Source of the DNA: a virus
Reading direction: 5' to 3' (one strand)
Length of the DNA: 57,523 nucleotides
IMG/VR virus record: IMGVR_UViG_3300032268_001051
Location: 1 to 57,523 of that record
This document shows positions 15,450-44,466 of the stretch, in pieces (within the stretch, counting starts at the first letter, position 1; every line of letters begins with the position of its first letter). The notes under the pieces were generated by a model. It did not search any database. It saw only the letters and a program-made list of their open reading frames with translations, and had not been told where the DNA came from. Made by a program: the position numbers and the translations under genes.

Positions 15450-16115
15450 TTAAGATGGTTCTTGTCCCGGTTGGAACGAGGTCCTTATATCTGTAGGATT
15501 AATGTCCTCAACTTCATCTGAAGTTAAAACATAATCTTTTTTACCTGTCTTTTCCATTTCAATTTTTTTGTCATCAAAGAAATCCGATAACTTTTGATTG
15601 AAAGGATATGAATCATAAGTTCTTAATTCTAACCTTTCTTGTGGAGTTTTTTCTCTATACTTTTCTATCTTATTTTCAATAGTATTAAGTCTATTCATTA
15701 GAGCATCCATCTCAGATAATTTCGCTTCTAACTTTGAAATTTGTCCGAAAAGGTTATTAAAATATTCATCTTGCTTTTGCTCAATATTCTTTTGAGAAGT
15801 TACAAGGTCAGTAATTTCTAACTCTTCAGTTCCACCTTCTTCTCCATCTGCAGGTTCACCTTCATCATCTAATTTCTCAACATCAGGGTCGTTCTCGATA
15901 TCGATTTTTTCAGGAGCCGCAGGAGCTGCCGGTGCTTCAGGAGCCGCAGGAGCACCTTCACCAGCACCTGTTGGGGGAATTGCTGCAGTTACTTCGTCCG
16001 CAACCGCATCTTCCGCACCAGGTATTGGTGGTAATGGAGCTTCTTGCTCACTTATGTATTTATTGATACTTTGGTATCTTTTAATTTCACTTAGAATCTT
16101 TTTATCTAAACTCAT
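15450..16115 (-). CDS. Acidic Ala/Pro-rich coiled-coil protein, function unknown
   Basis: The 221-residue protein has three zones. The N-terminal peptide is MSLDKKILSEIKRYQSINKY followed by ISEQ. An Ala/Pro-rich then strongly acidic stretch covers about residues 25-100. A predicted coiled coil follows (about 108-160, heptads such as FGQISKLEAKLSEMDALMNR). No enzyme motif is seen. The N-terminus resembles those of the genes at 32816 and 38332, and all carry [IL]SE sites like the T4 prohead protease recognition pattern. It could be a head-internal, scaffold-like or decoration protein, but this is inference. A clear terminator follows it. Confidence 0.7.
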   Translation of the reverse strand: MSLDKKILSEIKRYQSINKYISEQEAPLPPIPGAEDAVADEVTAAIPPTGAGEGAPAAPEAPAAPAAPEKIDIENDPDVEKLDDEGEPADGEEGGTEELEITDLVTSQKNIEQKQDEYFNNLFGQISKLEAKLSEMDALMNRLNTIENKIEKYREKTPQERLELRTYDSYPFNQKLSDFFDDKKIEMEKTGKKDYVLTSDEVEDINPTDIRTSFQPGQEPS

Positions 16116-32815: not shown

Positions 32816-33724
32816 TTATAGTTCTTCATCAGGACTTAGAACCCCTCTTTTAGCTCTCTTGATAACTGATTTAACCTCTGGTTTATTAACCTTAACATCA
32901 ACTTTGTCTACAGTTTTTGTTGGTGTAGTTTCCTTATTGTAATTTAACGACAATATTTTCCTTCTAATATCATCAGCTTCTGAGTTTGAAATGGGTTTAT
33001 TATTCGGGTCTACCACATCGATTTTTGATGGTGTTGTAGGTTCTTTAACCTCTGGTTCCGATATAGTCTTCTCCGTTGATTTAGATTGTGGTGTAATCAC
33101 TTTATCGGTAAGAGATAATTTCCAATCTTCTTTGACTTTATCCCAACTTTCACCATTCATCAATCTTGTAATCGCCGTAGGTCTGTATTTCCAAATGTTT
33201 TTGTAGTTGTCATTGTAGTCCATACTTGAATACTGATTGTCCATGACACGCATATAATCATAATAGTGATAGTCAATGAACGTGCAATTCTTTTTGATAA
33301 CGTTGATTGCGTTTTGAACATTTGGGTCTTTCAATGGTTTCCCTACAACATCTCCTCTACTTATGGAAGGGTCAATCGCATTTGCCAAACCTGCTATAAA
33401 CTTCATTTTGTAAGGTATACTTGTGTCTGATTGAAAGCAAAAAGAATAAATTTGAGCCTTCATTAGGTCGAACATATTATTCCAACAATCGAAACCGATT
33501 GTATCTTTAACATAATTCTTCATCACCCCCACCATTTCATCACCCGAGTATTTTTTACCTACGATTTTTCCGCCACTCATATACGAAAAAACTGATTCTA
33601 TGTCTGAAATTGCTTTAATTGCAGATTGTGGAATGGAGAATGACGAAGACTGTTCATTTACTAACCCATACATTCCACGGATTGTATTAATTTCAGATTC
33701 ACTAATAATCAATTTTTTTCCCAT
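32816..33724 (-). CDS. Unknown protein with [IL]SE-type N-terminal peptide
   Basis: The 302-residue protein opens MGKKLIISESEINTIRGMYG and then LVNEQ. It has a helical, Tyr- and Asp-rich middle (about 40-200) containing four cysteines, and a long Lys/Pro/Thr/Glu-rich low-complexity tail (about 205-302). No enzyme motif is recognised. The N-terminus resembles those of the genes at 15450 and 38332, suggesting a shared sorting or cleavage signal. It is between sheath and tail tube. A head-internal or injected protein is a guess from the signal only. Confidence 0.65.
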   Translation of the reverse strand: MGKKLIISESEINTIRGMYGLVNEQSSSFSIPQSAIKAISDIESVFSYMSGGKIVGKKYSGDEMVGVMKNYVKDTIGFDCWNNMFDLMKAQIYSFCFQSDTSIPYKMKFIAGLANAIDPSISRGDVVGKPLKDPNVQNAINVIKKNCTFIDYHYYDYMRVMDNQYSSMDYNDNYKNIWKYRPTAITRLMNGESWDKVKEDWKLSLTDKVITPQSKSTEKTISEPEVKEPTTPSKIDVVDPNNKPISNSEADDIRRKILSLNYNKETTPTKTVDKVDVKVNKPEVKSVIKRAKRGVLSPDEEL

Positions 33725-38331: not shown

Positions 38332-39027
38332 TTATTTTGTCATTAATCCAACTTGTTTTAACGCACCCCAATGAGATGACGAGTTAGATGAACTAGCACC
38401 ACTTACAACACCTGCACCTCTACCTCCTGACTTTCCCACAAACACGTTTGACGAAGGAACCCCACTGCTCACAGCCGCTCTAACATTGTTTTTAGTAACA
38501 GGTCCCACGGCATATGGTTCAATTATAAAAAGTTTATTTTTGTTTACATATGGACTAACCGCCAACTCATTTGCTTTCTTACAACCAGCACTAAATAAGT
38601 AGACAGGAATCTTTGGGTTCTTTTCCAAGAAGTCTTCAATATCTCTTGTTGATGTGCTATATCTGAAACCTTTTATTTTCTTATCGTTTCCCAATCCTGA
38701 ATTTAATAATTTTACTTGTGAATCGATGTCCAAATCTCCATCTCTATAATCTAACCCACCAACCAATACAGCATCAAATGAACCAGTTGATTTGACAGGG
38801 GATTTAACAGCAGTCTTACTTTTCGAACTTAATTCTTTACCAAATTCTTTTTGATATGCCTTTCTTGTCAACGGACCTGCTTTACCATCAACTCCGTCAC
38901 CCTTTGGACCGAAATCACCTAAGTCATATTTCTTAACCAAGATTTTTTGAATCTTTTCAACTTCAGGGTCGTATTCAATCTCATTGATTAAAAACTTAAG
39001 TTGGTTTTCAGAAATTAAGTATTCCAT
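38332..39027 (-). CDS. Peptidoglycan-binding-domain protein with unknown alpha/beta domain
   Basis: The 231-residue protein opens MEYLISENQLKFLINE, then has a peptidoglycan-binding domain 1-type segment at about residues 20-65 (VEKIQKILVKKYDLGDFG, then DGKAGPLTRKAYQKEFG). A Ser/Lys linker leads to an alpha/beta domain (about 82-200) with VLVGGLDY and VYLFSAGCKKANELA, where the FSAGC turn could hold a nucleophile. The tail is Gly/Ser-rich. It might be a cell-wall-acting enzyme or lysin, or a packaged protein, given the [IL]SE N-terminus. No classical endolysin domain is otherwise seen in the window. Confidence 0.65.
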   Translation of the reverse strand: MEYLISENQLKFLINEIEYDPEVEKIQKILVKKYDLGDFGPKGDGVDGKAGPLTRKAYQKEFGKELSSKSKTAVKSPVKSTGSFDAVLVGGLDYRDGDLDIDSQVKLLNSGLGNDKKIKGFRYSTSTRDIEDFLEKNPKIPVYLFSAGCKKANELAVSPYVNKNKLFIIEPYAVGPVTKNNVRAAVSSGVPSSNVFVGKSGGRGAGVVSGASSSNSSSHWGALKQVGLMTK

Positions 39028-39608: not shown

Positions 39609-39974
39609 ATGGAAATAAGACCATCTACAAAAATAATTTTAAAGAAAAGTCCAATTCACGGTTTGGGTGTTTTTTCAAGTCAAAAAATATCTAAAGGTGA
39701 ACCAATAGAAGAGTGCCCATTCTTAGCATTCCCACAAAACAAAAACGAACAAGTTCCCGCTTTTTCAAACTATACTTTTTGTTTCCCAAGAGGTGAAATG
39801 TGGACAACACATGCATTAGTTACGGGTTACGGTTCTTACTATAATCATTCTGAGAACGCCAATGTTGATTGGTATACAGAAAATGAATTAGGTCTTTTTG
39901 TTTTCAAAGCACTTAGAGACATTGAAAAAGATGAAGAACTTTTTATAAACTACGCAAATGGTGTCGTTTTTTGA
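39609..39974 (+). CDS. Minimal SET-domain lysine methyltransferase
   Basis: The 121-residue protein is a stand-alone SET domain. HGLGVFSSQKISKGEPI (residues 17-33) is the N-SET beta unit, GSYYNHSENANVDW contains the NHS cofactor motif (79-81), and FKALRDIEKDEELFINYA carries the ELFINYA catalytic-tyrosine motif (110-116). There are no pre-SET or post-SET zinc cysteines. Its size equals that of the chlorella-virus vSET enzyme (119 residues). It should transfer methyl groups from S-adenosylmethionine to protein lysine. The substrate is unknown; host or phage DNA-binding proteins are candidates. It is coupled to the SNF2 helicase by a TGATG overlap. Confidence 0.85.
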   Translation: MEIRPSTKIILKKSPIHGLGVFSSQKISKGEPIEECPFLAFPQNKNEQVPAFSNYTFCFPRGEMWTTHALVTGYGSYYNHSENANVDWYTENELGLFVFKALRDIEKDEELFINYANGVVF

Positions 39975-41745: not shown

Positions 41746-41759
41746 GATTATTTATTTAG
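41746..41759 (+). promoter_or_regulatory. TATTTATA promoter-like motif before the SOD-fusion gene
   Basis: GATTATTTATTTAG lies 19 nt upstream of the ATG at 41779 in a 44-nt gap after the SNF2 gene. It is a weaker match to the recurring motif. Confidence 0.4.
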
Positions 41760-41778
41760 AAATAGATAATCAAATATC

Positions 41779-43317
41779 ATGAAAAAGATTGAAGAAGAAA
41801 TTCAACTGTTAGAAAAACAAATACAAGAAAACCACATACAAGAAGAAAAAAAACAGTTGATTAACGAAATGAAAAAAATTGGAATAGAAAAACTACCTTA
41901 TTCCTACTCAGCCCTCAAACAATTTATCGATGCAGAAACAATGGACTTCCATTATAACAAGCATTACAAAGGGTATGTAGATAAATTAAACACGGCCTTA
42001 TCAAAGAAAAAATACGGTGATTTAGAATTAGAACAAATCATTAAAACTATTAGCCGTTTTGATAAATCAGTTAGAAACAATGCGGGAGGAGCATTCAACC
42101 ACGCTTTGTTTTGGAACATGTTAACACCTAACCCAAAAAAGTTAACAGGCGAACTTTATAAAAAAATTAACAAAGAGTTTGGTTCATTCACAACTTTCAA
42201 AAAGAAATTTGAAACTGTTGCTAAAGATAGATTTGGTTCTGGTTGGGTTTGGTTAGTTCTCACTGCAAAAAACGGTTTGAAGATTATGTCCACACCGAAC
42301 CAAGACAATCCATTAATGAATGTTATTGAAGGCGGTGGATTTCCACTTTTAGGTTTGGACCTATGGGAACATGCTTATTATCTGAAGTATAGAAACAAAA
42401 GAGACGAATACATTTCAAATTTTTGGAAGGTTGTCAATTGGGATTTTATATCAAAGTTGTATGAGATGAAAACAGAAACAAAACTTTTGGAATCAGAAGG
42501 ATTTTCAAAAATTATTTCTGAATCGGAAGAGCCTAAATTTTGTTCTCCTAAAGAAGTTGCCTTCTACAATGAATTAATTAACAACAGAAAAATCAAAGAT
42601 GTTTATCAGACTGGTATAACACACATCTTGAAAAAAGTATTCAGTCAATTTTGGGTTGACGCCACTTCAAAAGAAATGTCAGGATTCTACGGAATTGAAA
42701 CAAAAGATGGTAGGTCAATGTTAAATAACCTTAACACAAACTTCAACTCATTTTGTCTTATTGTTAAATCTGTAAACAATCAAATAGAATCTTTAGGACA
42801 ATTAGATAAGATGTTTGATTTTTCAAACCCCGAAAATAGAAACCTTAATGAGGTAAAAAGATTCTTAAGAGCGTTAGATTATTTTAGAAACGATATTTTC
42901 ACTAAAACAAACAAAGATTTTATTAATATCATTAAAGTTCTAATGGTTCTTTGGAAAAGAGGGCAAAAAAGTGAATTAAGTGCAACAAAGAAAATGGAGT
43001 TGTATTTTGGTAAAGATGTTAAAATAATTCAAGTAGGTGGTCACGGACAGAAAAAAGATGCCTTTAAAGGAATTGACTTAATTGTTAATTTAGATGGTAA
43101 AGAATATACTGCACAGGTAAAACCATATTCTAAAATGTCTTTGATAAAAGATAAGGTAGAATTATTAGATACTGGTAATGTGAAGAAATATGATACTGAT
43201 TGGTTAATCTTTGTAAATCAAAAGACTAACAAGATACTTATATTCAAAAACAACCCACTGACCGATGAGAATCAATATTCATTCAATTTAGATTCTTTGA
43301 TACACGAAATAGAATAA
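41779..43317 (+). CDS. Fe/Mn superoxide dismutase fused to a PD-(D/E)XK nuclease-like domain
   Basis: The 512-residue protein has a complete iron/manganese superoxide dismutase domain at about residues 35-228. All four metal ligands are present: His58 (TMDFHYNKHY), His108 (GGAFNHALFW), Asp194 and His198 (LDLWEHAYYLKY). A charged coiled-coil-like N-terminus (1-35) precedes it. A linker with an IISESE site (245-250) leads to a helical region and a C-terminal domain in which FKGIDLIVNLDGKEYTAQVK (Asp433, Gln446-x-Lys448) matches the PD-(D/E)XK nuclease core. Dismutases are normally about 200 residues and free-standing. The role of the fusion is unknown. Confidence 0.82.
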   Translation: MKKIEEEIQLLEKQIQENHIQEEKKQLINEMKKIGIEKLPYSYSALKQFIDAETMDFHYNKHYKGYVDKLNTALSKKKYGDLELEQIIKTISRFDKSVRNNAGGAFNHALFWNMLTPNPKKLTGELYKKINKEFGSFTTFKKKFETVAKDRFGSGWVWLVLTAKNGLKIMSTPNQDNPLMNVIEGGGFPLLGLDLWEHAYYLKYRNKRDEYISNFWKVVNWDFISKLYEMKTETKLLESEGFSKIISESEEPKFCSPKEVAFYNELINNRKIKDVYQTGITHILKKVFSQFWVDATSKEMSGFYGIETKDGRSMLNNLNTNFNSFCLIVKSVNNQIESLGQLDKMFDFSNPENRNLNEVKRFLRALDYFRNDIFTKTNKDFINIIKVLMVLWKRGQKSELSATKKMELYFGKDVKIIQVGGHGQKKDAFKGIDLIVNLDGKEYTAQVKPYSKMSLIKDKVELLDTGNVKKYDTDWLIFVNQKTNKILIFKNNPLTDENQYSFNLDSLIHEIE

Positions 43318-43338: not shown

Positions 43339-44466
43339 ATGGCAGTAATTCCAGAACCAGAAAGGTCCAAAATATATACGAGAATTAAACACCTCTTAGG
43401 TGCTCCTCTCAGAAGCGTTGAGCTCGAAGATGAACAAATGGATTCATTAATGGAACTTGCCATTGGTGACTACGAAGAATACATTCTCCAATGGTTAATC
43501 GATAGCCAATGGGTTAACTTGGTGAATTTAAATATGACTGAAAAATCTGTTGCGAGAGCACTTGTAACAAGAACAATGGATTTCGAACAACAATTCGCAT
43601 ACTCATATTCAAAAATTGTTGGACTACAAACAGTAGGACCATGGGTTTTAAAGCAAGATTATTTCATCCTAAGTGCAAACACTCAAAACTACGAAATCCC
43701 TGCTGGTCGTGAGGTTAATGAATTATTATGGTTCAGTAATCAACCGTTTACTGCATTTGGATTAGGTGGTGTCGGTGGATTTGGATTTGGTGGTATAGGT
43801 TTAGGTGCAAGCGAAGCTGGTTATGCACAAATGGGTTATCAAGGTTCCTACTTTATGATGTCAGGATTTGATTACCTCATAAGAATGCAAGAATCAAATA
43901 TTCTTAATAGAATCCTTGGAGGTTCTTTAACATACAGAATTACAGGATTACCTGATGGTAAAAGAAACGTATTCCTTTATAATACCCCTGGTGGAAGATT
44001 CAACTGGAATAACTATAGTATGTATGCGGGTAGAGCCGTTTGGTATTGGTATTATGATGTAGGTTCTGACGATAGGGCAGATTGTTTAAAAGCAAACCCT
44101 GACATTATTAAATTACCAACAGATGTTCCTATTGAAGAGTTAACTTGGGAAGACTTAAACACCCCTGGTCAACAATGGGTTAGAAGATGGTTTACCGCAT
44201 ACTGTAAAGAAACACTAGCAAGGGTTAGAGGGAAATATTCTGGTAATCTAAAAACCCCTGACTCAGAGATAACAATGGACTATCAAAGTTTGTTGACGGA
44301 ATCCAAAGACGAAAAATCAAAACTTATTGAAGAGTTAATTGGTGCTGAAGGATGGTTGACAAGATTAAGACCTGAAAAAGTAATGGAAAGAGAGGCGTTG
44401 ATTGCCGAAAACTTAAATAAACAAATGAAGTTCAGGGCAATGCCGAGACAAATCTACGTAATATAA
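43339..44466 (+). CDS. Neck protein, gp13-like
   Basis: The 375-residue protein opens MAVIPEPERSKIYTRIKHLL and continues LGAPLRSVELEDEQMDSLME, a helical N-terminus like gp13-type neck/head-completion proteins (T4 gp13 has 309 residues). A Gly/Phe-rich insertion (about 145-165, GLGGVGGFGFGGIGLG) breaks the fold. The C-terminal helix region (WVRRWFTAYCKETLARVRGK) is also typical of neck proteins, which in T4 close the filled head and dock the tail. Its stop overlaps the next ATG by 1 nt. The identification rests on pattern and neighbourhood. Confidence 0.65.
   Translation: MAVIPEPERSKIYTRIKHLLGAPLRSVELEDEQMDSLMELAIGDYEEYILQWLIDSQWVNLVNLNMTEKSVARALVTRTMDFEQQFAYSYSKIVGLQTVGPWVLKQDYFILSANTQNYEIPAGREVNELLWFSNQPFTAFGLGGVGGFGFGGIGLGASEAGYAQMGYQGSYFMMSGFDYLIRMQESNILNRILGGSLTYRITGLPDGKRNVFLYNTPGGRFNWNNYSMYAGRAVWYWYYDVGSDDRADCLKANPDIIKLPTDVPIEELTWEDLNTPGQQWVRRWFTAYCKETLARVRGKYSGNLKTPDSEITMDYQSLLTESKDEKSKLIEELIGAEGWLTRLRPEKVMEREALIAENLNKQMKFRAMPRQIYVI

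Follow-up and report, generated by a model that had tools for sequence, protein, structure and literature searches.

A phage protein that joins a superoxide dismutase to a PD-(D/E)XK nuclease-type domain, with predicted prohead-protease sites at its domain borders

Several described systems bear on the protein analyzed here. In phage T4, about 10 N-terminal residues are enough to carry a protein into the head, gp21 cleaves after L/I-x-E, and EcoRI and staphylococcal nuclease have been packaged into heads via leader fusion (PMC9026906). A virion-packaged superoxide dismutase (SOD) is found in the chlorovirus PBCV-1, where the enzyme is a late product and has been linked to reduced superoxide in infected cells (PMC7019647). 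Bacteroidetes-infecting bS21 jumbo phages with genomes of 293 to 331 kb have been described from freshwater, with no mention of an SOD in the main text of that paper (PMC9723584). The stand-alone SODs of other jumbo phages (Vibrio phage 2.275.O and PA5oct-like phages) have just ~180 to 190 residues. Among nucleases, the catalytic arrangement E-D-QxK is a variant found in I-Ssp6803I, and D-QxK is found in Mrr-like enzymes.

The DNA analyzed, here called the window, is a stretch of 57,523 nucleotides (IMG/VR record IMGVR_UViG_3300032268_001051) and is a 57-kb fragment from a relative of the bS21 jumbo phages of freshwater Bacteroidetes; in a 317-kb relative, bS21 is encoded on the opposite strand between the protease and portal genes, the same placement as in the described bS21 phages. 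One protein of the window combines an Mn/Fe SOD with a PD-(D/E)XK domain. Like the T4 internal proteins (IPI to IPIII and Alt), it has a predicted propeptide ending in L/I-x-E, belongs to phages with an S77 protease, and is preceded by a late-type element. It differs from them in that the leader has 30 rather than ~10 residues, a second predicted cut would separate two enzymes, and its location in the virion is inferred. The Cu/Zn SOD of PBCV-1 (A245R), being viral, late, and virion packaged, is a parallel to the proposed fusion product, whose packaging is predicted, but it is an unrelated enzyme from a virus of a eukaryotic host and has no nuclease partner. The features of the locus are as follows.

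41746 to 41771, + strand: late-promoter-like core TATTTAT (41749 to 41755) within an imperfect dyad, GATTAT...ATAATC, 7 nt ahead of the start codon
41779 to 43317, + strand: SOD/PD-(D/E)XK fusion gene, an uninterrupted reading frame of 512 amino acids with Pfam support, fused in the closest relatives
41779 to 41868, + strand: N-terminal leader (residues 1 to 30), a charged helix ending in QLINE30, candidate capsid-targeting propeptide, absent from ordinary SODs
41857 to 41868, + strand: predicted prohead-protease site 1, LINE30|M31
41869 to 42465, + strand: Mn/Fe SOD domain (residues 31 to 229), from Pfam and PDB matches and invariant ligands
41950 to 41952, 42100 to 42102, 42358 to 42360, and 42370 to 42372, + strand: SOD metal ligands H58, H108, D194, and H198
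42466 to 42537, + strand: interdomain linker (residues 230 to 253), of low model confidence at 233 to 239
42484 to 42492, + strand: predicted protease site 2a, LLE238|S
42511 to 42522, + strand: predicted protease site 2b, IISE248|S (within IISESE, residues 245 to 250)
42538 to 42960, + strand: helical part of the C-terminal module (residues 254 to 394), from the model
42961 to 43314, + strand: PD-(D/E)XK core, from structural matches and invariant catalytic columns
42973 to 42975, 43075 to 43077, 43114 to 43116, and 43120 to 43122, + strand: catalytic residues E399, D433, Q446, and K448
43339 to 44466, + strand: neck or head-tail adaptor gene (phrog_211 head-tail adaptor; E value, 3e-11), directly downstream of the fusion gene

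The N-terminal half is a complete SOD. Both Pfam domains are found well above their cutoffs, with Sod_Fe_N matching residues 36 to 115 (E value, 9e-23; 81 bits versus a cutoff of 27) and Sod_Fe_C matching residues 123 to 226 (E value, 7e-40; 136 bits versus a cutoff of 21). Among solved structures, bacterial SODs come closest, and the top PDB sequence match of the protein is the SOD 6gsc (E value, 9e-61). The four Fe/Mn ligands named in the earlier note, His58, His108, Asp194, and His198, stand at those positions and are identical in all 45 aligned fusion relatives, on which all residue conservation counts given here are based; the same is true of the gateway residue Tyr66 and the second-sphere residue Gln175. 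The protein thus shares with the Mn/Fe SODs (PF00081/PF02777) the full two-domain SOD, the four ligands, the gateway tyrosine, and the glutamine, and differs from ordinary members by its 30-residue leader and a 283-residue C-terminal extension. Its NNAGG and NQDNP motifs are characteristic of Mn-type or cambialistic enzymes. By fold and ligands the SOD is intact, and superoxide dismutation is predicted. No catalase, a natural partner of an SOD, was found in three relatives.

The C-terminal half has no family match in Pfam, NCBIfam, or PADLOC and a single weak PHROG match to which no function is assigned (E value, 0.005 to 0.012), and a profile of its alignment gave nothing convincing against the sequences of solved structures. 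A model of residues 252 to 512, built from 47 sequences, reached a pLDDT of 86. With VIA-align, the top rows for this model were PD-(D/E)XK enzymes (Z up to 9.1, 106 residues aligned, rmsd 3.3), namely, I-Ssp6803I (Z 9.1), nuclease subunits of SPARDA systems (8.9), Hjc (8.8), and NhoI (8.3), with DpnI and PvuII lower among the matches; Foldseek gave a modest best E value of 2.7e-3, yet with a probability of 1.0. The nuclease-type core GIDLIV-x(n)-AQVK that had been noticed from the sequence is present, and the model places a complete E-D-QxK set on a PD-(D/E)XK fold: E399 lies in helix 1, D433 ahead of strand 2, and Q446 and K448 in strand 3. All four residues, including E399, which had been missing from the residue list of the earlier note, are identical in 45 of 45 relatives, and their invariance amid a variable core indicates selection for catalysis. 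The domain shares with the I-Ssp6803I, Hjc, and NhoI nucleases a predicted alpha-beta-beta-beta core, the E-D-QxK set, and a D-to-Q spacing of 13; it differs from them by its additional helical part, by its fusion to an SOD, and in lacking a nuclease family match. The model does have the nuclease fold whose absence would have counted against the earlier note, and it identifies the C-terminal half as a PD-(D/E)XK domain, for which DNA cleavage is predicted.

Relatives of the C-terminal module that lack an SOD occur in other phages. A 735-kb phage encodes a 290-amino-acid homologue (50 bits and an E value of 1e-14 in a profile search of ~1,100 frames), which has the helical part partly in common with the window protein and has no obvious leader. 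A second homologue, of 251 amino acids, is encoded by a 634-kb phage (E value, 2e-6), and its N terminus, MKKFTEYIKE|SS, resembles a T4 capsid-targeting peptide with an L/I-x-E cut. Scans with these two homologues recovered no further viral relatives, and the collection of bacterial and archaeal genomes contained no relative of the C-terminal half, so that no host origin was traced. In a viral structure library, the top match to the C-terminal module was A0A6J5L953 (TM 0.81, 30% identity), followed by A0A8D9CCA0, a 1,113-amino-acid protein of a marine phage (TM 0.78). A0A6J5L953, a 501-amino-acid protein of an uncultured Caudovirales phage, is annotated solely as "superoxide dismutase"; since the structural match spans the whole C-terminal module, it is probably a more divergent deposited copy of the same fusion. 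As this one deposited relative is named after its SOD half alone, the other enzyme and any processing might have been missed.

The fusion is not peculiar to the window. At least 594 encoding stretches were found in IMG/VR, and each of the best 80, which were inspected for the fusion, encodes the same protein at 71 to 99% identity. Scans with divergent members led to contigs in which the C-terminal half is 49 to 57% identical and the fusion is retained, and in all 13 large relatives, up to 326 kb in size, a single SOD is fused in frame to one C-terminal module. The length stays close to 512 amino acids across many independent contigs, and a split form was never seen within the group. The gene order, with SNF2 helicase, the fusion, the neck gene, and DNA polymerase in succession, is the same in all 44 loci whose flanks are complete. 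No part of the protein escapes purifying selection, as judged from dN/dS values of 0.20 for the leader, 0.03 for the SOD, 0.19 for the linker, 0.07 for the helical part, and 0.15 for the nuclease core. The single 512-amino-acid frame at 41779 to 43317 (+), proposed in the earlier note to join an SOD to a nuclease-like domain, thus holds up, and the misassembly or chance merger of two genes that was raised there as an objection was rejected: the 80 best matches come from separate samples and are all fused, the divergent contigs are fused too, and the whole length is under selection, which leaves an artifact with next to no probability. The same note knew of no described protein with this pairing. 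The pairing does seem undescribed, but it is not confined to one genome and recurs as a constant trait throughout a large group of phages. Its components are all of familiar types; for the architecture in which processing sites lie on either side of the SOD, no description was found in the open-licence papers searched.

The suggestion that the halves might be cut apart at the linker gained support, since a predicted site there fits the T4 gp21 rule, is conserved within a variable linker, and occurs in a phage whose relatives encode a matching protease. A strict hydrophobic-hydrophobic-x-E sequence is conserved in most of the 45 fusions at only three glutamates, E30 (100%), E248 (93%), and E510 (89%), with E30 and E248 flanking the SOD and E510 lying near the C terminus. 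At site 1, [IL][IL]xE30 is present in 45 of 45 and M31 is invariant, and PDB SOD alignments mostly begin at about residue 36, close to M31. At site 2a, L236-x-E238 is kept in 45 of 45. At site 2b, all 45 contain [ILVM]xE, with the strict form in register in 93%, while columns 240 to 247 beside E248 are merely 29 to 82% conserved; in two relatives (L161 and L162) the linker glutamate is shifted by one residue and [ILV]xE|S is kept. Being short, the [IL]xE motif also turns up by chance, and we estimate roughly that at least two of three randomly placed sites over 512 residues would hit the border regions with a chance of about 2%. The full-length model is of moderate quality (pLDDT 75) and places E30 and E248 at helix ends rather than in clearly open loops. 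An S77 prohead protease (PF03420) is encoded in 5 of 5 relatives, adjoining genes for a gp23-type capsid protein, a gp20-type portal, and terminase; the gene was not seen within the 57-kb window. In 10 of 10 relatives, the cut in the capsid protein is inferred to be ...LINE60|ASSTS, a tetrapeptide identical to that of LINE30.

Short leaders are widespread in the group. N-terminal leaders of the forms MK[IY]IITEsQ and KKIIRLTEsDLvrLVkrVIkEQ are common to many proteins of the 317-kb relative (G001, L088-L104), mainly at 192 to 205 kb, and within the window they are found on proteins encoded at 32816 to 33724 (-), 38332 to 39027 (-), and 15450 to 16115 (-). A strict leader motif in the first 15 residues was counted in 18 proteins versus 1.5 expected in one genome and in 16 versus 1.7 in another, an approximately 10-fold enrichment over shuffles in both. 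We regard the leader-bearing proteins as candidates for a large set of head-packaged, ejected proteins; the 30-residue leader of the fusion is unlike the commonest short leaders (MKxIITES...).

Upstream of the fusion gene, 35 of 35 relatives share the element TTATTTAT unchanged. Its core, TATTTAT, precedes 97 of 395 genes in the 317-kb relative and 89 of 396 in a 326-kb relative, compared with ~1% of windows in the interior of open reading frames, and lies mostly 11 to 12 or ~21 to 23 nt upstream of start codons (L088-L104 and L259-L275). It is found ahead of the sheath, gp22-like, protease, portal, vertex, and neck genes and not ahead of DNA polymerase or SNF2. Genes with a strict leader have it more often than others: in the 317-kb relative, 15 of 28 such genes carry it compared with 82 of the remaining 367 (P = 8e-4), and in the 326-kb relative, 13 of 30 compared with 76 of 366 (P = 0.01). 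TATTTAT looks like the late promoter of the phage group; we call it late-like, short of proven late, because it also precedes a few replication genes, such as the SSB gene of the window, and is missing at the capsid-protein gene. The dyad over this core contains two stem pairs with compensatory changes, and the pairing is kept in most relatives and lost in a few clades, so it could possibly be an operator or an RNA hairpin.

With predicted protease sites at its joints, the protein is probably packaged in the virus head, where its two parts would be separated. Our favored reading, to which we give even chances, is that the fusion is a late precursor of a head-packaged, protease-cut, and probably ejected enzyme pair, with packaging, cleavage, ejection, and activity all being predictions; it is favored because of the precedent of the chlorovirus virion SOD and because head-packaged nucleases are tolerated in T4. 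Also in its favor are the conserved sites that flank the SOD, the like site in the capsid protein, the S77 protease of the relatives, the T4-like leader of the 251-amino-acid homologue, the late-type element, and the excess of leader motifs in two genomes. Against it stand the shortness of the motif, the helix-end positions of E30 and E248, the dissimilarity of the leader to the commonest short ones, the exceptions in the distribution of TATTTAT, and the lack of an obvious leader in the 735-kb phage homologue; moreover, the SOD is far more constrained than the nuclease core, so the halves need not have a common role. The 30-residue leader would place the protein in the prohead, as the capsid-targeting sequences of the T4 internal proteins do, and the S77 (gp21-type) protease would cut after E30 and after E238 or E248. 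This would yield two proteins, an SOD of ordinary appearance beginning at M31 and the PD-(D/E)XK nuclease-type part. The two products would remain in the head with the DNA and then be ejected into the Bacteroidetes host. The nuclease-type domain might have DNA as its target upon entry, with host DNA or branched or modified DNA the most likely substrates; the SOD may clear superoxide from the packaged genome or from the newly infected cell. More tentatively, and with somewhat less than even chances, a single late protein would be turned by the prohead protease, within the head, into an antioxidant enzyme and a nuclease, both of which would be injected to condition the host at the onset of infection, with the fusion being one of many leader-tagged cargo proteins. 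If this is true, then phages carry a ready antioxidant enzyme and a nuclease in their capsids, much as chloroviruses package an SOD; a T4-type protease would serve to process cargo enzymes out of polyproteins; and a sequence rule (leader, hydrophobic-hydrophobic-x-E, and TATTTAT) could be used to predict injected proteins of uncultured Bacteroidetes jumbo phages.

The main rival to this reading, which we consider rather unlikely, is that the protein is made late and stays uncut in the cytoplasm as a bifunctional enzyme, with the SOD lowering superoxide near phage DNA and the PD-(D/E)XK domain processing or repairing that DNA. Both active sites are intact, and the fusion is nearly fixed at 512 amino acids and never split within the group, as would be expected of such an enzyme, and fusion may merely serve to colocalize the two activities. 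However, an ordinary SOD needs no 30-residue leader, and an uncut protein does not readily account for protease-type sites that are conserved precisely where the domains meet, within a linker that otherwise varies. The functions suggested in the earlier note, namely, DNA protection, redox sensing, and attack by the nuclease, are hypothetical.

Two further alternatives give the C-terminal domain a different task. It might be a packaging nuclease that debranches DNA or resolves junctions, a functional stand-in for T4 gp49 with the SOD as a passenger. Hjc resolvases rank with the top structural neighbors, although no Pfam family matches the domain; RuvC, RusA, and VRR_NUC had no Pfam match in three large relatives, and the gene has a late-type position and is universal in 13 of 13 relatives. 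Homing and restriction endonucleases score as well as Hjc, however, and a motif scan of the 317-kb relative revealed an alternative candidate at 290671 to 291273, a 200-amino-acid protein with a RuvC-like N terminus, VLGLDVSTKTIGWAL, so that we consider a resolvase role improbable. Quite improbable, too, is the idea that the domain has little or no catalytic activity and binds DNA so as to tether the SOD to packaged or intracellular phage DNA. Antioxidant shielding of DNA would be an obvious use, and the nuclease core evolves faster than the SOD, but the four catalytic residues are invariant in 45 of 45 relatives in the midst of that variable core.

Two observations on the genomes that carry the C-terminal module are of note. 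Both the window (39609 to 39974) and the 735-kb phage (L082:5332-5769) have a SET-domain gene close to the nuclease module; among the 44 full-flank relatives, such a gene was detected in just 28. The 317-kb relative encodes, at 176194 to 177465 (-), a 423-amino-acid distant paralogue of the C-terminal module (E value, 4e-7), which was seen in this one genome and carries the sequence PLIES near its N terminus.
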